A model generated the notes under the pieces. The model searched no databases and had not been told where the DNA came from. It worked only from the letters and a program-made list of their open reading frames with translations. The translations under genes and the position numbers were made by a program. Positions 3,608 through 29,502 of a stretch of DNA of 61,003 bases are shown one piece after another. Origin of the DNA: Corallococcus sp. AS-1-6 (GTDB lineage Bacteria; Myxococcota; Myxococcia; Myxococcales; Myxococcaceae); contig NZ_JAIQDE010000044.1 of NCBI RefSeq assembly GCF_020037015.1, forward strand, positions 1-61,003, written 5' to 3'. Numbering within the stretch: position 1 is the first letter of the stretch; each line of letters starts with the position of its first letter.

Positions 3608-4958
3608 GCCTCGCGCGGCAGCCCCGGCCGTCCGTGCGGTTCTCCAGGCGCAGACTGCCTCCGTGCGCCTCGGCGATCTGCCGGCTGAGCGCCAGGCCGA
3701 TGCCGCTGCCCTGGGGCTTGGTGGTGAAGAAGGGCACGAAGAGGTTCGCGGTGTCCGCGAGGCCGGGGCCTTCGTCCTCCACCCAGACCTCCACGGCGCC
3801 CGGCGCGTGCACCGCCCAGGAAACCCAGACACCACCCGCGCCCCCGTCCGACAGGACCGCGTCCACGGCGTTGCGCACCAGGTTGATGAGCAGTTGCTCC
3901 AGTTGGTCGCCATCGCCAGACACGGTGAGGACGGGGCCCGGGCGCACGGCGACGGGGCGGCGCGGCTCCAGGGCCACCACGCGGCGCACCCAGGGCTCCA
4001 CCTCGACGGGGCCCGGGGTGGGGGGCGGCAGGCGCGCGAGCCGCGCGTGGGCGGACATGAAGCGGGACAGGGCCTCCGCGCGGCGGGCGATGATGCCCAG
4101 GCCGTGACGGGTGTCCTCCTCCCAGTCCGCCGGGCGCGGCACCTGGGCGACGGTGTCCCGGAGGGCGTCCGCGATGGATTGGATGGGGGTGAGGGAGTTG
4201 TTGATTTCGTGGCTGAGCACGCGGACCAGCCGGCGCCAGGCTTCGCGCTCCTCTTCGCGCAATGCCAGACGCAGGTCGGTGAGCACGACGAGCTGGTGGG
4301 GCTGGCCGCCTTCACGGAAGGTGCCTCGCCACAGCTCGTAGGGACCGCCGTCCTGCTGCGCGAAGGCGCGCGTGAGGCGGCGGGGGGCGGGGCCCTCCAG
4401 CAGGTCGCTCCAGCCGAGGGCTTCCGCGCGCTGGCCCAACAACTGCGCGCGAGGCAGGCCCACGAGCCGGGCGCCCGCGCGGTTCACCAGCTTGAGGGTG
4501 CCGGCGGCGTCGAAGGCGAGCACCGCGACGTCGATGGCCTCCATGACCTGGCCCAGCAGCGCGCCGGCCTCCATCGCGCCCAGGCGCTGCTCGCGCAGGG
4601 TGTCCCCCAGGGCGTTGACCTCCAGGAGCACCTCCCCGAGCGGATCCCCCGCGCGTCCGCCCCGGCCGCGCACGGAGTAGTCGCCCTCACGCAGGGCGGC
4701 CAGCAGGCCCGCGACGGTGTGCAGGGGCCGCACGACGCGCTCGCGGAGCGCCAGGCAGACCCCGGCGTGGACGCCCACCACCAGCACGGACAGCGTCCAG
4801 CGCACCTTGGCGGTGAAGTCCCCCGTCCACAGGAGCGCGAGCGTCACGACGACCGCGGGCAGCCCCGCGAGGACCGCGAGCCACGTCACGCGCAGGTCGT
4901 ACGGCACGAGGGACCGCGGCTCGTGCGCGTCCTTGTCGTGCGCGGCGCCGCGGCTCAC
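3576..4958 (-). CDS. Membrane sensor histidine kinase (NtrB-like, PAS plus HATPase)
   Basis: This encodes 460 residues with start GTG 4958-4956, overlapping the regulator stop as GTGA. Two membrane helices (about 24-45 and 54-72) are followed by a HAMP-like stretch, a PAS-like region (about 130-225), and the kinase core: H250 in SHEINNSLTPIQ, N-box around N363 (LVRNAVDA), G1 box DEGPG at 395-399, FFTTKPQGSGIGL at 411-422. The HExNN and FFTTKPxGxGIGL motifs are typical of partners of NtrC-type regulators, and the gene sits directly after one. There is very little periplasmic sequence, so it probably senses a membrane or cytoplasmic signal. It is the last gene of the five-gene exporter operon. 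Confidence 0.92.
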   Translation of the reverse strand: MSRGAAHDKDAHEPRSLVPYDLRVTWLAVLAGLPAVVVTLALLWTGDFTAKVRWTLSVLVVGVHAGVCLALRERVVRPLHTVAGLLAALREGDYSVRGRGGRAGDPLGEVLLEVNALGDTLREQRLGAMEAGALLGQVMEAIDVAVLAFDAAGTLKLVNRAGARLVGLPRAQLLGQRAEALGWSDLLEGPAPRRLTRAFAQQDGGPYELWRGTFREGGQPHQLVVLTDLRLALREEEREAWRRLVRVLSHEINNSLTPIQSIADALRDTVAQVPRPADWEEDTRHGLGIIARRAEALSRFMSAHARLARLPPPTPGPVEVEPWVRRVVALEPRRPVAVRPGPVLTVSGDGDQLEQLLINLVRNAVDAVLSDGGAGGVWVSWAVHAPGAVEVWVEDEGPGLADTANLFVPFFTTKPQGSGIGLALSRQIAEAHGGSLRLENRTDGRGCRARLRLPLDAPRA

Positions 4959-6373
4959 CTTGCGCCCTTGATGCCGTAGTACTGGAGCCGCCGGTAGAGC
5001 GCGCTGCGCGACAGGCCCAGCGCCTTCGCGGCCTCGCTCACGTTGCCGTCGTGCCGGCCGAGGGAGCGCTCGATGAGGTAGCGCTCCACCTCCTCCAGCG
5101 TCATCTCCTCCAGGCGCGTGCCCGCTCCGCCCGGCGGGCCCATCCGCTTGAGCAGCAGGTCCTCCGCCTCCACGCGGTCCCCCACCGCCATCAGCAGCGC
5201 GCGCTCCACCGCGTGCTCCAGCTCGCGCACGTTGCCCGGCCACGGATACGCGATGAGCGCCTCCATGGCTCCCGGCGCCAGGTGGATGTTGGGACGGCCG
5301 TAGCGCTGCCCCTGCGCCGCCAGGAAGTGCGTCGCGAGCAACGGGATGTCCTCGCGCCGCTCCCGCAGCGGCGGCAACTGCACCTCCACCGTGTTGAGCC
5401 GGTAGAGCAGGTCCTCGCGGAAGCGGCCCTCCGCCGCCGCGCGGCCCAGGTCCACGTTCGTCGCGCTCACCACGCGCACGTCCACGCGCCGCGTCCGCGA
5501 CGAGCCCACCGGGTGCAGCTCCCCCGTCTGGAGTACCCGCAGCAGCTTCGCCTGCTGCGTGAGCGGCATGTTCCCAATCTCATCCAGGAAGAGCGTGCCG
5601 CCGTCCGCCAGCTCGAAGCAGCCGATGCGGTCCGTCTTCGCGTCCGTGAAGGCCCCCTTCACGTGGCCGAAGAGCTCGCTCTCGAAGACGCCCTCGGACA
5701 GGCCGCCGGAGTTCACCGCGACGAAGGGCCGGTCCGCGCGCGTGCTCGCCGCGTGGATGAGCCGCGCCACCACCTCCTTGCCCGTGCCGTGCTCCCCCGT
5801 CACCAGCACCGGCGCGGACGACGGCGCCACCCGCTCGATGAGCCTGCGCACCGGCTGCATCGCCCGCGACTCGCCCACCAGCGGGGAGCGCCCGCCCTGC
5901 TCGCGGCGCAGGTGCTGGTTCTCCTCCTCCAGCCGCCGGCCGCGCTTCAACGCGCGGGACAGCTCCACCTGCGTGCGCAGCGTGGCCAGCAGGCGCGTGT
6001 TGTCCCAGGGCTTCTGCACGTAGTCGCGCGCGCCCAGGCGCATCGCCTCCACCGCGCCCTCCACGCTGCCCCACGCCGTCATCACCACCACGGGCAGGAG
6101 CGCGTCCCGCGCGCGCAGCTCGCCCAGCAGGTCCAGGCCCTCACGCCCGGAGGTCGTATCGCGCGCGTAGTTCAGGTCCATCAACACCAGCTCCACGTCC
6201 TCCGCGTCCAGCGTGGCCTTCACGCCCGCGGGGGACTGCGCGCTCACCACGGTGTAGCCGTCGCGCTTGAGCAACAGGCGCAACGCCTCCAGCACGTCCG
6301 GCTGGTCGTCGGCCACGAGGATGCGGGTGGTGCGCGGGGAGGGAGCGGTGGGTTCGGACACGGAGGACGCCAC
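4955..6373 (-). CDS. NtrC-family sigma-54-dependent response regulator
   Basis: This encodes 472 residues. The receiver domain spans about 15-135 with the acidic pocket at ADDQ, phospho-acceptor D66 (LVLMDLN) and K121. The AAA+ domain has Walker A GEHGTGKE (193-200), GAFTDAK (240-246, in place of canonical GAFTGA), Walker B LFLDEIG (261-267) and FREDLLYRLN. A Fis-type helix-turn-helix is at the C-terminus (SEAAKALGLSRSALYRRL). The start is GTG at 6373; no strong ribosome binding site is visible and a GTG four codons later is possible. It lies between the permease and the kinase genes and probably regulates this export operon. Confidence 0.93.
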   Translation of the reverse strand: MASSVSEPTAPSPRTTRILVADDQPDVLEALRLLLKRDGYTVVSAQSPAGVKATLDAEDVELVLMDLNYARDTTSGREGLDLLGELRARDALLPVVVMTAWGSVEGAVEAMRLGARDYVQKPWDNTRLLATLRTQVELSRALKRGRRLEEENQHLRREQGGRSPLVGESRAMQPVRRLIERVAPSSAPVLVTGEHGTGKEVVARLIHAASTRADRPFVAVNSGGLSEGVFESELFGHVKGAFTDAKTDRIGCFELADGGTLFLDEIGNMPLTQQAKLLRVLQTGELHPVGSSRTRRVDVRVVSATNVDLGRAAAEGRFREDLLYRLNTVEVQLPPLRERREDIPLLATHFLAAQGQRYGRPNIHLAPGAMEALIAYPWPGNVRELEHAVERALLMAVGDRVEAEDLLLKRMGPPGGAGTRLEEMTLEEVERYLIERSLGRHDGNVSEAAKALGLSRSALYRRLQYYGIKGAR

Positions 6374-6403
6374 GGTGAGGGACTGTGCCAGAAAGGAGGG
6401 AAC

Positions 6404-8824
6404 TCAGTCGGCCCGGAGCGCGATGATGGGGTCCACGCGCGTCGCCCGCCGGGCAGGCAGCCACGACGCCCCCAGCGCCACCCCGGTCAAGAGCAACGCG
6501 ACCCCGCCGAACGTCCACGGGTCGGCCGCCGACACGCCATACAGCAACGACCCCAACAGCCGCGCCAGCCCCAGGGACAGGCACAGCCCCACCCCCACGC
6601 CCGTGAGCGACAGGCGCAGGCCCTGCGCCAGCACCAGCCGCAGCACGTCCCCCCGCGCCGCGCCCAGGGCCATGCGGATGCCCAGCTCCCGCGTGCGCTG
6701 CGTCACCGAGAAGGCGATGACGCCCGACAGGCCCAGCGCCGCGAGCAGCAGCGCGACGCCCGCGAACAGCCCCATCACCAGCGCGGACAACCGCCGGGGG
6801 CCCGTGGACTGGTCCATCCGGTGCGTGAGCGAGGACACGTCGAACAGCGGCAGGTCCGCGTCCACCGCGCGAACCTCCGCCTCCACCTGGGCGCGCAGGG
6901 CCTCCGGGTTCCCCGACTTCACGCGCACCGCCAGGCCCATGGACACGGACGGCAACTGCGACAGCGAATAGTACGCCGCCGGGCGCGCCGGCACGTCCAG
7001 GCCCCACTCGCGCAGGTCGTCCACGATGCCCACCACCGTGGTCCACTGCATGTCCTTTCCGTGCAGCTTCAAGCGCTGCCCCAGCGCGTCCCCTTTCGGC
7101 CAGAAGAGGTCCGCGAAGGAGCGGTTGATGACCACCGCCCAGGGCGCCTCCGGCCCGTCCGAGTCCTCCAGGAGCCGGCCCTGCCGCGGGTGGACGCGCA
7201 GCGCGCGCAGGTAGCCCGGCGTGACGGCGCGGAACTCCACCGCCTTCCACAGCTCGTCCGGCTGGCGTGGGCGCCCCTCGATGTCGAAGCTGTTGTCCGT
7301 GGAGCCGCCCAGCGGGAGCACGTTCGTCAGCCCCGCGGACTCCACGCCCGGCAGCGACTGGAGCCGGGGCAGCAGGGCCTGGAGGAAGGCCGCCTGCTTC
7401 GCCCGGTCCGGGTACTGCACCCGGGGCAGCGCGAGCTGCCCGGTGAGCACGCCGTCCGGCTCGAAGCCCGCGTCCACGCGCTGGAGCGCGAGGAAGCTCT
7501 TCACGAACAGGCCCGCGCCCACCAGCAGCACCAGCGCGAGCGACACCTGCGCCACCACCAGCGCCGCGCGCAGCCGGCCCGTGCGGTGGTTCCCCGTGGC
7601 GCGGGCGCCCTCGCGCATCGCCGCGTGCAGGTCCGCGCGGCTCGCCTGGAGCGCGGGCACGAGCCCGAAGAGCACGCCCGTGAGCACCGACACCCCCAGG
7701 GTGAAGAACACGGAGGCCAGGTCCAGCTTCACGTCCTGCGCGCGCGGCAGGCTGTCCCCCACCGTGGCCACCAGCGCGTCCGTGCCCCACAGCGCGAGCA
7801 GCAGCCCCACCGCGCCCGCCACCAGCGACAGCACCAGGCTCTCCGTGAGGAACTGCGCCACCAGCCGCAGCCGCCCCGCGCCCAGCGCCGCGCGGATGGA
7901 CACCTCGCGGCCGCGCGACACCGCCCGCGCGAGCAGCAGGTTCGCCACGCTGGAGCACGCCACCAGCAGCACGAAGCCCACCGCGCCCCAGAGCAGCCAC
8001 AGCGTCTCGCGGACCCCGCCCACCACCTGCTCCTCCAGCGACTTCACGCTCATGGACCAGCCCCACCGCCGGTACTGGTCCACCAGGTCCGCGGGGCGCG
8101 CGTTGCCCATGCGCACCAGGTTCGCGCGCGCCGCGTCCAGCGTCATGCCCGGCTTGAGCCGCGCCATCACGCTCAGGAAGCGGTTGCCGCGCCGGGACTC
8201 CTCCTGCTGCTCCGGCGTGGGCGCGAAGGGCAGCACCGCCTCCATGTCCTCCGGATAGATGCCGCCCGGCGGCAGCACGCCCACCACCGTGCGCGGCACG
8301 CCGTCCAGCCGCAGCACGCGCCCCAGCACCTCCGGGTCCTTCGCGAAGAGGGTGCGCCACGCGGTGTCCGTGAGGATGACGACCGCGTCCAGGCCCGGCG
8401 TCTCCTCCTCCCGCGTGAAGCCCCGGCCGAGCACCGGCGCGACGCCCAGCGTGGGCAGGAACGACGCCGTGGCGGCGACGACGCGCAGGCGCCGGGGCGA
8501 GTCCCCCCCGGTGAGCGTCATGTCGTCCGGCCGGAAGGCCGCGAGCGACGCGAAGGCCTTCGTGTGCGTGGTCAGGTCCCGGTACTCGGGGACGGAGTTC
8601 GAGACCTCCTTCAGGCCGAAGGCGTCGAAGTTCGGGGCCAGAAGCACCAACTCCTCCGGCCGCGTGAACGGCGGCGGGGTGAGCAGCACGCCCTTCACCA
8701 CGCTGAACACGGCGCTGTTCGCGCCGATGCCCAGCGCCAGCGTCAGCACCGCCACCGCCACGAAGCCGGGGGCGTTCTTCAGGGAGCGCCACGCGTAGCG
8801 CAAGTCACCGAGCAGGTGTTCCAT
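6404..8824 (-). CDS. ADOP/MacB-like ABC transporter permease
   Basis: This encodes 806 residues starting MEHLLGDLRYAWRSLKNAPGF, the typical opening of the acidobacterial-duplicated-orphan-permease (ADOP) family. It has an N-terminal helix ending LALGIGANSAVFS, a large periplasmic MacB-like domain, a first FtsX-like group of helices around 270-390, a second periplasmic domain, and a final FtsX group with the motif RTRELGIRMALGA near residue 710. Such permeases work with MacB-type ATPases to move substrates or transmit force across the envelope. It starts 18 bases after the ATPase gene. Most ADOP genes lack a neighbouring ATPase; here the adaptor and ATPase are adjacent. Confidence 0.92.
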   Translation of the reverse strand: MEHLLGDLRYAWRSLKNAPGFVAVAVLTLALGIGANSAVFSVVKGVLLTPPPFTRPEELVLLAPNFDAFGLKEVSNSVPEYRDLTTHTKAFASLAAFRPDDMTLTGGDSPRRLRVVAATASFLPTLGVAPVLGRGFTREEETPGLDAVVILTDTAWRTLFAKDPEVLGRVLRLDGVPRTVVGVLPPGGIYPEDMEAVLPFAPTPEQQEESRRGNRFLSVMARLKPGMTLDAARANLVRMGNARPADLVDQYRRWGWSMSVKSLEEQVVGGVRETLWLLWGAVGFVLLVACSSVANLLLARAVSRGREVSIRAALGAGRLRLVAQFLTESLVLSLVAGAVGLLLALWGTDALVATVGDSLPRAQDVKLDLASVFFTLGVSVLTGVLFGLVPALQASRADLHAAMREGARATGNHRTGRLRAALVVAQVSLALVLLVGAGLFVKSFLALQRVDAGFEPDGVLTGQLALPRVQYPDRAKQAAFLQALLPRLQSLPGVESAGLTNVLPLGGSTDNSFDIEGRPRQPDELWKAVEFRAVTPGYLRALRVHPRQGRLLEDSDGPEAPWAVVINRSFADLFWPKGDALGQRLKLHGKDMQWTTVVGIVDDLREWGLDVPARPAAYYSLSQLPSVSMGLAVRVKSGNPEALRAQVEAEVRAVDADLPLFDVSSLTHRMDQSTGPRRLSALVMGLFAGVALLLAALGLSGVIAFSVTQRTRELGIRMALGAARGDVLRLVLAQGLRLSLTGVGVGLCLSLGLARLLGSLLYGVSAADPWTFGGVALLLTGVALGASWLPARRATRVDPIIALRAD

Positions 8825-25650: not shown

Positions 25651-25681
25651 GGCGCCGCGGGCCCCGGGCCTCGCGCCCCCG

Positions 25682-27637
25682 CTACGCCGTCAGGGCCGCC
25701 AGCCGCTCCTGCACGCTGGCCCGGTCCTCCGCCTCCGGCGCCATGTCCAGGTAGGCGCGCAGGTCGGACGCCGCCTCGTCGCGCCGCTTCAGCTCCGCGA
25801 GCACGATGGCCCGGTTCGTATAGAAGTCCGCGACGGTCGGGGCCAGGGCGATGGCCGCGTTGAGGTCCGCCAGCGCCTCCGGCAGCCGCTGCTGGGAGTA
25901 GTGGAGCAGGGAGCGGTTGGCGAGCACCGTCGGCTGGGACGGCTGGAGCGCGAGCGCCCCTGAGTAGTCGGCGATGGCCGCCTCGACGCGCCCCAGCTCC
26001 TCGTGGGCCTGGGCACGGCCCAGCAGGGCGAGCAGCCGGGAGGGCTCCAGGTCGAGCGCGGTGGAGTACGCCTCCGCGGCCTCCTCCATGCGCCCCATGG
26101 CCCGCAGGCACTGGCCCCGGTTGATGTGGACCTCCGCGTACGGCGGGCTCAACTGGAGCGCCCGCTGGAAGTCCTCCAGCGCCTCCGCGTAGCGGCGCCC
26201 GCGCATCAGCAGGCTCCCGCGCTCGTTGAAGTACTCGGAGTAGTCCGGGTCCATCTGGATGGCCGCGGTGTAGTACTCAATGGCCTGCGCGTCCGAGCCG
26301 AGCCCCGCCAGCACCTGCGCGATGTTGTAGAGCAGCACGGAGCGGTGGAGCCGGTGGCGCTCCGGGTGCAGGTGCGACTCCAGTTGCTGGAAGCCGGCCC
26401 TGCACAGCTCGATGGCCTCCTCGGAGCGGCCCTGCCGGTGGCGGACGAACGCCAGCGCGTTGCGGTTGAAGACGCGCAGGAAGATGCGCTCCTCCTCCGG
26501 GATGTCCGCGGCGTCGATGTCCTCCAGGCCCAGGTCCAGGTAGTGCTCGGCGCGCTCCAGGTCCGGCCGGGCCAGGAACCGCCCATGCAGCATGCCCAGC
26601 GTGTAGTGGAGCTTGGTGCGGATGAGCGGGGAGGTCCGCTGGGCGCCCACGCGCGTCGCCAGGGCCAGGATGGCATCCGTGTTCCGGTGGGCCGAGTAGC
26701 TGTTGAACAAGAGGCCAGTCACCGTCCAGTACGACCCCGGCGCGTCCTCCGCCATCCGCTCCGCCTGCTCGCGCAGGGGCTCGCCGTAGTGCAGCGCGTC
26801 CGAGTACAGCCCGTAGTGGCTGGCCAGCCGGAACGCCGTCACGCGGGCCTCGAACAACGGCGCCTCACGGCCGCTCGCCTCCCACAGCCGCAGCAGCTCC
26901 GGCAGGCGCATCTCCAGCGCGATGGGGTCCTCCCGCAGCTCGGCCTCCAGCGCCTCCGCGCGCCGGGAGGCCTCGTCCGGCGCCAGCGCGGCCGGCGCCG
27001 CTTCCCGAGGGAAGTCCTCGCGCACGTGGTGGATGGGGACCGTGCGCGGCAGCCGCGCCATCAGCGGCTCCGCCTGCCCCGGCGCCACCGCGAGCACCAG
27101 CCGCAGGCCCAGCGGTTGGGCGCGGCGGCGCAGCAGCTCCAGGTAGAAGTGCTGGACCAGCTTCCCCGCCTGGTCGAACGCATCACACAGGATGACCCAG
27201 GGCGCCGGCGGCGCGTGCCGCTTCCAGGCGGCCATCAGGTCGATGAGCCCGTGGGAGATGCGGAAGACGCGGTCCGCCGGGAAGTTGCGGACCTTCTCGT
27301 GGCTGAGCGCGCCGTCCGTCAGCGTGGTGTGGCGCGCCTTCATCTCCCGGCGCAGGGAGGGCAGCACCGCGAGCAGCTCGTAGTCGTGCTGGACGAGCAG
27401 CCCGGGCGCCTCCTCGCGGAGCGCGGGGATGCTCGCGGCCAGCAGGTCCCGCAGGCCCGCCCACGGGCCGCCCCAGGCCATGTCGCCGTTGGTGGACCAG
27501 ACGCGGGCGCCGCCGCGCCCGGCCTCGTCGGCCCACCGGGCCAGCAGCGCCTGTCGCCGGGCACCGGGCTCGCACTCCAGCAGCAGCACGGACGGGGACT
27601 CCATCACCACCGGGAAGACGTCGTTCGCTCGTGTCAT
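25682..27637 (-). CDS. TPR protein with degenerate N-terminal ATPase-like domain
   Basis: This encodes 651 residues. The first 230 residues look like a STAND/AAA-type NTPase: a P-loop-like site reads LLLECEPGARRQALL without the GK[ST] and a Walker B-like strand reads WVILCDAFDQA. From about 290 onward the protein is helical, and at least five tetratricopeptide repeats are visible from about 430 to 640 (for example AIEYYTAAIQMDPDYSEYFNERG). It probably scaffolds a peptide or protein rather than hydrolysing ATP. The gene starts 2 bases after the M50 gene, with GGAG five bases before ATG 27637; a GTG at 27643 overlapping the previous stop is an alternative. It is the last gene of the peptide operon. 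Confidence 0.8.
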   Translation of the reverse strand: MTRANDVFPVVMESPSVLLLECEPGARRQALLARWADEAGRGGARVWSTNGDMAWGGPWAGLRDLLAASIPALREEAPGLLVQHDYELLAVLPSLRREMKARHTTLTDGALSHEKVRNFPADRVFRISHGLIDLMAAWKRHAPPAPWVILCDAFDQAGKLVQHFYLELLRRRAQPLGLRLVLAVAPGQAEPLMARLPRTVPIHHVREDFPREAAPAALAPDEASRRAEALEAELREDPIALEMRLPELLRLWEASGREAPLFEARVTAFRLASHYGLYSDALHYGEPLREQAERMAEDAPGSYWTVTGLLFNSYSAHRNTDAILALATRVGAQRTSPLIRTKLHYTLGMLHGRFLARPDLERAEHYLDLGLEDIDAADIPEEERIFLRVFNRNALAFVRHRQGRSEEAIELCRAGFQQLESHLHPERHRLHRSVLLYNIAQVLAGLGSDAQAIEYYTAAIQMDPDYSEYFNERGSLLMRGRRYAEALEDFQRALQLSPPYAEVHINRGQCLRAMGRMEEAAEAYSTALDLEPSRLLALLGRAQAHEELGRVEAAIADYSGALALQPSQPTVLANRSLLHYSQQRLPEALADLNAAIALAPTVADFYTNRAIVLAELKRRDEAASDLRAYLDMAPEAEDRASVQERLAALTA

Positions 27638-27639
27638 GG

Positions 27640-28923
27640 TCACTCCAGCGCCACTGTCTGGGAAAGCGCCGCCGCGGCGCGCTTGCGGCCGGAGCGGTCC
27701 CGCGCGATGCCGCGCAGCCACAGGAAGAGGCCCACGCCCAGCGTGCCCAGGCCCACCGTGCCCAGCACCAGGGCGTCCACCACCGCGTAGACGTGGTCCC
27801 CCGGTGAAGCCAGCGCGTGGTGGATGGAGCGGACGTAGGCCAGGGCGACGGGGAGCTGGACGCCGAACAGCAGGGCGAAGGCCAGCAGCCGCCCCAGCAC
27901 CCAGAAGCCCGCGTAGACATGGATGACCCGGCGCTCAGCCGGGGGCACCGCCTCCAGGGGGTCCCCCTCTGGAGGGCGGGAGCGCAGCAGCCCGCGCACC
28001 CGGTGCTTGAGCAGCGCCTCCGTGTCCCCCATCAGGTTCTTGCACCCGAACAGGTTGACGAAGACGCAATACATGTCCGTGCGGAGGAAGAACTGGAACT
28101 GCCACAGCACGCGGAACGCCAGCATCAGGAGCGACGCGCGCAGCAGCCACTGCGTCTGCAAGGCCAGGGACACCCAGCCCTGCGCCTGCGCGAAGAGCGT
28201 CAGCAACGACAGGGCCATGAGGACCAGGTCCAGCAGCGGGCCCGCCAGGAAGGGCAGGTAGCGCTGGCGCCGGGGGATGCCCCAGACCCCGGTCATGTCC
28301 GTCTCCGCCACCAGGATCCACAGCCGGTGGCTGATGCCCAGCCGGCACGGCACGCCCACGGCACGCGCGGCCACCAGGTGCGCCATCTCATGCAGGAAGA
28401 GCATCCCGTAGTTCAGGGCCAGCAGCACCAGCAGGGTGACCGTCATGTGCTGGGACACGGCCAGGGACGACCAGCCGGGGAGGATGGAAGGCCGCAGCAC
28501 CACCGCGGCCACCGCCGCCATGATGAGCGCGCCATAGGCCCCGAGCGCCCACGGTCCGAAGAGCGCCTGCGCGAGCCCCCGGGGAAAGCCCGCGAAGTGG
28601 TAGCGCACCGGATCCGTCCGCGGCGCGGACTCCGGAGGCGGCTGCGCCGTCACGGCGCGCGTCGCGTCGCGCAGGAAGCCCCGCGGCTCCAGCGCTTCAA
28701 TCAACCCCTGCGCATCAGGCACTTCGCCGTACTTCGAGACGTAGAAGGCCTCCGCCTCCGCCAGCGTCCTTCCTTCGCGCAACTGGTCGAGGAGCTCCAC
28801 GGCATCCGGAGGAAGCGCCAGGAAGACGCCCTGCGCCGGCAGGCCGATGATGACCTCTCCGCCCTCCTGCTGCCGGGTAAAGGCAGCCACGATGAACGTC
28901 GACGTCGCGGCGTAGTGGCTCAC
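27640..28923 (-). CDS. PqqD-like domain fused to M50 membrane metalloprotease
   Basis: This encodes 427 residues. Residues 1-90 look like a PqqD/RiPP-recognition winged helix (GVFLALPPDAVELLDQL, GRTLAEAEAFYVSKYGEVPD, LIEALEPRGFLRD). Residues 115-420 are multi-pass membrane, with about eight helices. The zinc motif HEMAH is at 178-182 and the third-ligand motif GPLLD at 228-232, as in site-2-type proteases. Similar PqqD-M50 fusions occur as putative peptide metalloproteases in RiPP loci such as yyd. It follows a 40-codon peptide gene and precedes the TPR gene, so it may recognise and cleave or export that peptide. The start is GTG 28923 with a weak ribosome binding site. Confidence 0.85.
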   Translation of the reverse strand: MSHYAATSTFIVAAFTRQQEGGEVIIGLPAQGVFLALPPDAVELLDQLREGRTLAEAEAFYVSKYGEVPDAQGLIEALEPRGFLRDATRAVTAQPPPESAPRTDPVRYHFAGFPRGLAQALFGPWALGAYGALIMAAVAAVVLRPSILPGWSSLAVSQHMTVTLLVLLALNYGMLFLHEMAHLVAARAVGVPCRLGISHRLWILVAETDMTGVWGIPRRQRYLPFLAGPLLDLVLMALSLLTLFAQAQGWVSLALQTQWLLRASLLMLAFRVLWQFQFFLRTDMYCVFVNLFGCKNLMGDTEALLKHRVRGLLRSRPPEGDPLEAVPPAERRVIHVYAGFWVLGRLLAFALLFGVQLPVALAYVRSIHHALASPGDHVYAVVDALVLGTVGLGTLGVGLFLWLRGIARDRSGRKRAAAALSQTVALE

Positions 28924-28967
28924 ACCCGGCCCCCGTGGAGCAGCGCGAAAGGGAACTCCAACCCGGC

Positions 28968-28996
28968 ATGGAAGGAATGGGGGTCCACCCTTCCAT
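28968..28996 (-). repeat. Hairpin between the peptide gene and the protease gene
   Basis: Perfect 8-base arms ATGGAAGG and CCTTCCAT flank a 13-base loop that itself contains a GGG/CCC pairing. It lies in the 90-base gap after the peptide stop. There is no T-run, so it may be a partial terminator or an mRNA 3'-end stabiliser, giving more peptide than protease. That expression role is inferred. Confidence 0.5.
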
Positions 28997-29013
28997 CCCG
29001 GTCACAGAAGAGA

Positions 29014-29136
29014 CTAGTTGGCGCCGGCGCCCGTCAGGATGCACCAGATGTCGTAGTAGGCGGCGGTCGTCTTCACGGTCTCCATCTCGCGGATGGTGAA
29101 CTTCTTCATCGCCGGCTGCGTCGAAGTGCTGTTCAT
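29014..29136 (-). CDS. 40-residue peptide, candidate RiPP-like precursor
   Basis: This small gene runs ATG 29136 to TAG 29014. It has an excellent ribosome binding site (AGGAGAG, five bases before ATG) and a sigma-70-like promoter upstream. The N-terminal part is polar and charged (MKKFTIREMETVK from residue 10), like a leader; the C-terminal part is aromatic and hydrophobic with one Cys, ending YYDIWCILTGAGAN. There is no signal peptide. The next gene carries a PqqD-like domain and a membrane metalloprotease, the expected machinery for recognising and cleaving such a leader. No radical SAM, YcaO or lanthionine enzyme is adjacent, so the peptide may be unmodified or processed only by cleavage. 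I do not recognise a family. Confidence 0.75.
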   Translation of the reverse strand: MNSTSTQPAMKKFTIREMETVKTTAAYYDIWCILTGAGAN

Positions 29137-29502
29137 GAGACTCTCCTGGATTGGCTTTCGGGCCACGATGGCGCCGTGCCGATATCGAGAATAGTCTCAT
29201 CAAATCACAAGTCAATAACAGCCATGAGATATACTCAAACAGGGGAAATGCTGGATTGACGCAAGGAATTGTCGGCCCGCGTCAGTCACATCCGCCCGGA
29301 CCCGCCAACGTCAATCCAGACCCGGTGTCACACGGCCCCATTCCACGCCGTCTGGTGAGGGATTGCGGGGAGGAGCCCCGGGCTGGAGAGGGATTGATGG
29401 GTTCACGCCGGACCTCACGGTGAGGGCCGTGGGTGCCTTCCGCATGCACCCGGGGTTCTGGCATATTCCATGGAGGTCATCTTTTTCCGGGAGGAGTTCA
29501 AC
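29137..29502. other. AT-rich divergent regulatory region
   Basis: This 366-base gap lies between the peptide gene (-) and a lipoprotein gene (+). Its left 150 bases are strikingly AT-rich for this genome and hold the peptide promoter. Just upstream of the -35 box is a small imperfect palindrome, GAGATATACTC (29226-29236), a possible operator. I see no gene in it. Confidence 0.6.
29188..29215 (-). promoter_or_regulatory. Sigma-70-like promoter of the peptide operon
   Basis: On the minus strand, TTGACT (29215-29210) and TATTCT (29193-29188) are separated by 16 bases. A start site near 29181 would give a 5' leader of about 45 bases. Such near-consensus boxes are rare in this window, which suggests strong expression. 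Confidence 0.6.

Follow-up and report, generated by a model that had tools for sequence, protein, structure and literature searches.

Rap-Phr systems pair a short peptide with a partner protein of the tetratricopeptide repeat (TPR) type. In daptides, the proposed leader peptidase MpaP is a recognition element for ribosomally synthesized and post-translationally modified peptides (RiPP recognition element, RRE) fused to an intramembrane site-2 protease (S2P) (PMC10036551). Epipeptides (EpeXEPAB) use the M50 protease EpeP, and M50 proteases are also found in pearlins (PMC10885120); another M50 protease, Eep, matures SHP pheromones (PMC13361665); and TMcins have an S2P-clan leader peptidase, TmcP, and precursors with a transmembrane helix and a 45-residue leader (PMC13252029). 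Here we describe a three-gene cassette in a 61,003-nucleotide stretch of Corallococcus sp. AS-1-6 (Myxococcota; contig NZ_JAIQDE010000044.1, positions 1 to 61,003; hereafter, the window). It encodes, in this order on the minus strand, a 40-residue precursor peptide with homologues in 11 other loci (29014..29136), a 427-residue RRE–S2P fusion assigned from sequence, Pfam and a predicted model (27640..28923), and a pseudo-P-loop/TPR protein of 651 residues counted from its ATG (25682..27637). Across 13 loci, in 12 of 195 Myxococcota genomes and on one contig of a metagenome-assembled genome (MAG), the TPR gene is present in all 13, the peptide in 12, the protease in six and an ATP-binding cassette (ABC) exporter in two. 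Our leading interpretation, which in our judgement has about an even chance of being right, is of a horizontally moving RiPP-like peptide cassette in which the TPR protein, as the most constant partner, reads the leader and the processing and export modules are interchangeable. Among the papers listed in a search confined to open-licence literature, none was seen to describe this cassette.

Daptide loci are alike in having an RRE N-terminal to a site-2 protease and adjoining short precursor open reading frames (ORFs) with a conserved N-terminal motif. Unlike them, the cassette has a TPR partner and lacks an oxidative decarboxylase, an aminotransferase, a methyltransferase and the daptide leader motif ELExMEAP; membership was rejected, as none of the 12 tails ends in Thr and no MpaB, MpaC, MpaD or MpaM genes are common to the loci. 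With epipeptides the cassette shares a short precursor, an M50 intramembrane protease and, in some cassettes, an ABC transporter. It differs in its TPR protein and in that protease and exporter are alternatives here, never found together, and the three-gene unit contains no radical SAM gene, nor do the cassettes share such an enzyme, which sets aside epipeptide membership; a radical-SAM-like ORF occurs in locus L021 only. That ORF (L021 16551-17000, genome G059) carries CxxxCxxC, reads as a radical SAM protein truncated by the locus end, and lies downstream, with ~5 kb, including a protein kinase gene, between it and the cassette. SHP-Eep-Rgg likewise combines a short peptide, an M50 protease and a TPR-type partner, but here, in contrast to it and to Rap-Phr, the peptide has a charged leader without a hydrophobic signal peptide, a constant leader is joined to a variable tail, and no output domain was seen. 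TMcins have conserved product cysteines, as here, and would share leader removal in the membrane by an S2P-clan enzyme, but the cassette precursors are only 22–45 residues long overall.

Actinomycetes also hold RRE–S2P relatives, in 25 records of a plasmid collection; the 20 rows listed show 31–35% identity, with a best E of 2e-25. Unlike the cassette proteases, these have a ThiF/E1-like gene directly upstream, and no relative of the cassette TPR protein is present in the plasmid collection. Annotation shows this pairing, with the two genes overlapping by 4 nt, in all three annotated loci inspected, and it was read by eye in an unannotated fourth (L066 4865-7155; L067 4808-7158; L068 4787-7185; L069 ~4850-7100). 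A 38-codon ORF (4456-4572) upstream of the pair in L068 is possibly another peptide system.

Composition of the cassette across loci

Profile searches covered 195 Myxococcota genomes and, from one other phylum, a sample of 348 genomes. A single-sequence search found the protease in four of 118 relatives, the window's own genome included; a scan of genome contigs added Myxococcus vastator AM301 and a 5.4-kb contig, possibly misbinned, of a MAG labelled Bacillota; and a profile found the protease in five of the 195 Myxococcota genomes. The gene order peptide, protease, TPR is kept in all six protease loci, and the five outside the window carry the same leader. A preliminary description of this DNA, made from its sequence alone, would have been refuted by homologous loci without a peptide gene at this position; each of the six protease loci has one.

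A profile of the six peptides was run on 189 of the 195 Myxococcota genomes, a sample that may not include G022 and G045. It recovered the five known copies and, more weakly, peptides in G137 (E 1e-5), G004 (6e-5), G032 (7e-5) and G121 (0.007); four peptide matches at E 0.05-0.08, and nine places at E 0.12-0.94 from a separate search, were left out as noise before counting, their neighbourhoods unread. All four new peptides lie directly upstream of a TPR homologue with no adjoining protease. The TPR gene of G004 and of G032 is followed by an ABC exporter gene, whose scores resemble those of MsbA-related/TAP-type transporters and fall under their cut-offs; in G137 and G121 no common gene was seen after the TPR gene, and the protease is found nowhere in the genome at E ≤ 1e-8. 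The profile of the TPR protein's N-terminal domain, which matches 12 of the 195 Myxococcota genomes with one copy each, added G006 and G045, whose upstream peptides have 32 and 33 residues, and G022. Overall, 12 of the 13 loci have the peptide immediately 5′ of either the TPR gene or the protease–TPR gene pair. The window's genome has one copy each of the peptide, the TPR gene and the protease; a second protease match (E 0.097) was insignificant and was dropped.

Two expectations of the preliminary description need revision in the light of this distribution. The TPR protein, regarded there as an accessory scaffold, is the most constant partner, exceeding even the peptide. The proposal that the three genes would suffice to recognise, cleave and release a small peptide fits the protease subtype, but the protease is absent from seven of the 13 loci, and two of these have an exporter instead. 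For the protease subtype, processing and release of the peptide by the RRE–S2P protein is plausible, since daptides have a fusion of this kind as their proposed leader peptidase (PMC10036551). Among the neighbourhood genes listed, no modifying enzyme is common to the cassettes, in keeping with the original statement that no known one is present.

In G022 the peptide and protease genes were probably deleted, because the TPR gene (L062 5741-7720; ratio of nonsynonymous to synonymous rates, dN/dS, 0.31 versus G043) adjoins what appears to be the same histidine kinase gene that flanks the complete cassette of G043. Such a natural deletion could reveal the role of the TPR protein alone. In G006, a 199-codon lipoprotein-like gene whose start is overlapped by the TPR gene (L063 7725-8324) has no Pfam or NCBIfam match and is a possible further accessory gene.

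The precursor peptide and its expression signals

Cross-locus comparison divides the peptide of the window into a conserved leader, residues 10-26 (MKKFTIREMETVKTTAA; 29059..29109, minus strand), and a variable tail, residues 27-40 (29017..29058, minus strand), which bears the Tyr and Cys of a [YW]-x(3,4)-C pattern. All 12 cassette peptides have a basic start and contain a K[TS][TSA] block, and the leader is best kept in the six protease loci and in the protease-less G137 and G121 (MKKLTIR-x-TET-x-KTS). In the 12-peptide alignment the rows of L046, L047 and L049 are shifted by a few codons; exact coordinates were determined separately. Every one of the 12 peptides has a Tyr or Trp six residues past the leader Lys (seven in one peptide), and 10 have a Cys 4-5 residues beyond that, the exceptions being G137 and G121. 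None of 20,000 shuffles equalled this pattern, and a non-redundant set (9/9 for [YW], 8/9 for Cys) was likewise unmatched. The tails are otherwise hypervariable and hard to align.

Close relatives separate the two parts of the precursor. Between the window and Myxococcus vastator (L019), nonsynonymous differences amount to 0 over 36 sites in the leader and 12.3 over 34 sites in the tail, and in three close pairs the proportion of nonsynonymous differences (pN) is 0.00, 0.06 and 0.08 for the leader and 0.36, 0.36 and 0.56 for the tail; the tail values come from short, anchored, ungapped alignments, for which we do not claim dN/dS > 1. A leader motif matches 12 of 4408 open segments (264 kb, 17 loci), and these are exactly the 12 cassette peptides; the motif was composed after the peptides were known, and the scan measures specificity only. 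The short precursor, conserved leader, variable core and adjoining processing genes are those of a RiPP-type precursor.

The 40-codon gene is a real gene. That a short ORF might be no gene at all is suggested by its length and by family libraries, in which the 40-residue peptide has no match, but we regard a chance ORF as hardly credible: the peptide is present in 12 of 13 loci, it is constrained at the protein level in close pairs, and its profile alone led to the protease-free loci.

The window also supplies the promoter-like site and the ribosome binding site that had been ascribed to this gene. A sigma-70-like site, TTGACT-16-TATTCT (29188..29215, minus strand), has 9 of 12 consensus matches, versus 0.1 expected in shuffles, and AGGAG (29143..29147, minus strand) ends 6 nt 5′ of the ATG; TTGAC occurs within 140 nt upstream of the peptide start in eight of the 12 cassettes. 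The 130 nt 5′ of the peptide gene have 49% GC versus 72% for the window, and 7 of 6088 windows of the same size are equally low. Described originally as a few bases apart, the genes are so at the protease/TPR junction, where the protease stop, CC and the ATG of the TPR gene follow one another, but the peptide stop is 90 nt from the protease start. This gap holds a hairpin (28963..29001, minus strand) that is not significant in the window. Hairpins 3′ of the peptide gene reach z < -2 in eight of 12 loci and are unremarkable in the window, L046, L049 and L064; for whole-gap folds in six loci, z < -2 in five, the window being the exception. Such a hairpin would fit a precursor made in excess of its partner protein, a reading that for the window is conjectural. 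An Rfam search gave no match.

The RRE–S2P protease and its TPR partner

Two domains make up the protease: a PqqD-like winged helix, residues 8-86 (28666..28902, minus strand), and a site-2 protease core, residues 111-297 (28033..28593, minus strand), with the zinc motif HEMAH at residues 178-182 (28378..28392, minus strand) and Asp232 further along. The predicted model was built from six sequences and has a mean confidence score (pLDDT) of 72. In it, residues 8-86 form a three-stranded sheet and a winged-helix bundle that match PqqD (5sxy, Z 8.8) and the lasso B1 structures 6jx3_B (Z 10.6, root-mean-square deviation, rmsd, 2.3, 79 aligned) and 5v1v_A (Z 10.3), which were solved with leader peptide. 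The PqqD-like domain of the preliminary description is thus predicted to be a leader-binding-type RRE fused to an S2P-like core, though Pfam PqqD matches one of the six members only, and weakly (E 0.017).

For residues 111-297 the model matches SpoIVFB (8vjl_A, Z 8.8, rmsd 3.9, 132 aligned) and mjS2P (3b4r, Z 6.9), scores that are modest for a helical protein. Foldseek returned no match to the protease model at E ≤ 0.001, and the best E in a sequence search of solved structures was 0.92. We make the S2P assignment, which agrees with the M50 protease first proposed, because beside these modest structural matches Pfam M50 is found in six of six members (best E 6e-8; the window copy, at 25.4 bits, is below the 27.2 cut-off) and H178, E179, H182 and D232, an HExxH motif with a distal Asp, are invariant in all six. 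In one close pair the protease has a dN/dS of 0.29.

The TPR protein is modelled with a pLDDT of 90, with a TPR superhelix making up the C-terminal two thirds. The match to the TPR domain of OGT (1w3b_B, Z 21.4, rmsd 3.3, 307 aligned) is generic; Rap entries lie within the TPR structure matches at Z 17-19. The comparison is dominated by the TPR part and bears little on the N-terminal fold. Members from the 13 loci are 37-91% identical with 75 invariant positions, and dN/dS is 0.22-0.40 in close pairs. At the place of Walker A all 13 hold E-x3-G-x2-R (Glu22, Gly26, Arg29), which is not the active GxxGxGK[ST]. The earlier view of a degenerate NTPase with TPRs stands as far as this motif and the predicted strand and helix order, which by eye fits a P-loop fold, but profile comparisons gave no support for kinship of the N-terminal domain to P-loop families. 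Kinship to AAA_16 ATPases was rejected on one hhalign comparison with a kinase-borne stretch (probability 1%), and Pfam on the N-terminal domain returned ORC-CDC6-like at E 0.057 only.

Pfam found no helix-turn-helix (HTH) in the whole TPR protein or in its N-terminal part, which sets the protein apart from the RRNPP regulators Rgg, PlcR and NprR with their N-terminal HTH, and no other output domain was found in the whole protein. PADLOC gave a weak PrimPol match for the TPR part (E 0.03), matches of the exporter to mad3/mad8, and none for the protease or the peptide. No relatives of the N-terminal domain were found in viral contigs (by pattern scan) or in plasmids, and the 348-genome sample of the MAG's phylum held one only in the MAG itself.

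Mobility of the cassette and readings of its mechanism

Two congeners lack, at the corresponding site, the DNA on which the cassette lies (25651..29430; edges approximate, the right one at ~29400-29435). Of 16 genomes of the window's genus, 15 were found to have the phosphoesterase gene of the left flank. Its copies in G006 and G013, 97.7 and 94.4% identical, are separated by ~90 bp from the right-flank lipoprotein gene (92.6 and 89.5% identical); the corresponding interval of the window measures ~3.8 kb. G009 and G012 have ~0.7-0.8 kb of other DNA between the flank genes, and for the 10 remaining genomes the lipoprotein gene was out of reach. The filled sites (L084 ~525-1240 in G009, L081 ~2156-2922 in G012) differ from the cassette, L084 containing what reads as a different short lipoprotein gene; perhaps this site often takes up inserts. 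The cassette was not seen in 14 other flank loci, with up to 1.5 kb of flank examined and one 48-base match (L083). G006 has its own, different cassette elsewhere in its genome.

In a tree of the TPR proteins, the exporter types group as sisters with a protease type (100/100). A six-row clade that includes protease types also takes in G006 and G045 (100/99), and members of the window's genus, four in all, are spread over three clades; the six-row protease tree splits likewise. The root was placed by midpoint only, and the deep G137/G121 branch could be primitive instead. Taken with the empty sites in congeners, these placements indicate that the cassette moves horizontally and that loss or exchange of the protease probably happened repeatedly.

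In the reading we favour, the small gene would yield a precursor whose kept N-terminal leader guides it and whose fast-changing C-terminal tail is the product part. The pseudo-P-loop/TPR protein would read the leader as a cytosolic receptor or escort. In the protease subtype the RRE may read the leader too, and, by analogy with established families, the site-2 protease would cut in the membrane near the KTTAA/aromatic boundary and free the tail. An ABC exporter or unlinked machinery would take the place of the protease in the remaining cassettes, and the product would most likely be an exported signal or bacteriocin with a Tyr/Trp-Cys unit. The RRE is unlikely to be the sole leader reader, because six loci that have no linked RRE still retain the leader, two of them almost unchanged; the TPR protein is the likeliest other reader because it is the only protein always present.

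Several observations weigh against a TPR-centred reading. The leader has drifted in the four other protease-free peptides (G004, G032, G006, G045), as might also be expected if the RRE were its main reader; invariant in all 12 peptides are two Lys only, with Met10, Thr20 and Thr23 nearly so; and positions of the TPR groove show no extra conservation (p 0.60). Four loci have a peptide with no linked protease or exporter, and one, G022, keeps an intact TPR gene with no peptide alongside. Pooled over 66 pairs, leader differences per site are higher at nonsynonymous (0.39) than at synonymous (0.20) sites, and we therefore rest the claim of leader constraint on comparisons of close pairs and on the conservation of the motif. 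The same drift, together with the RRE fold and the well-kept leader of the six protease loci, is what would be expected if the RRE–S2P protein were sole leader reader and processor and the TPR protein an accessory. We think this improbable, given the near-canonical leader in G137 and G121, which are without the protease genome-wide at E ≤ 1e-8, and the TPR gene in 13 of 13 loci; the drift in four of the six protease-free loci does suggest that the RRE may add to the constraint on the leader.

A rather unlikely, though more substantial, competitor is a peptide pheromone, matured by the protease, exported as a tail and re-imported, with the TPR protein as an intracellular sensor in the manner of Rap-Phr or SHP-Eep-Rgg. 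Eep offers a precedent for maturation by an M50 protease (PMC13361665), the TPR superhelix resembles the Rap, PlcR and NprR receptors among many other TPR proteins, and peptide and TPR protein stand alone in four loci. Against it, no DNA-binding or other output domain was found in the TPR protein; the structural matches are generic; and the constant part of the peptide is its leader, the TPR proteins keeping their 75 invariant positions despite tails that cannot be aligned. Hypervariable tails that differ between close relatives, on a mobile cassette, would also suit a bacteriocin whose producer is protected by the TPR protein as a neutraliser, in a toxin–antidote logic. To this we give little credence: immunity usually tracks the toxin part, but the TPR protein looks cytosolic and constant, and G022 retains its gene with no peptide alongside. 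Extending our favoured reading, one may tentatively envisage, with some doubt, an undescribed leader-guided class whose defining leader reader is a catalytically dead P-loop/TPR protein, with protease and exporter interchangeable and the tails serving as diversifying, horizontally moving signals directed at kin or prey.

As a minimal, naturally varied system, the cassettes comprise one to four genes and combine similar leaders with a protease, an exporter, or neither of the two. The identity of the leader reader is directly testable in them, as is the question of whether an intramembrane protease alone frees a peptide without tailoring enzymes. Mining for tailoring enzymes would miss the entire family, and mining for the protease would miss seven of the 13 loci. 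Carried by predatory soil bacteria, the cassette suggests a hitherto undescribed system of peptide secretion or signalling.

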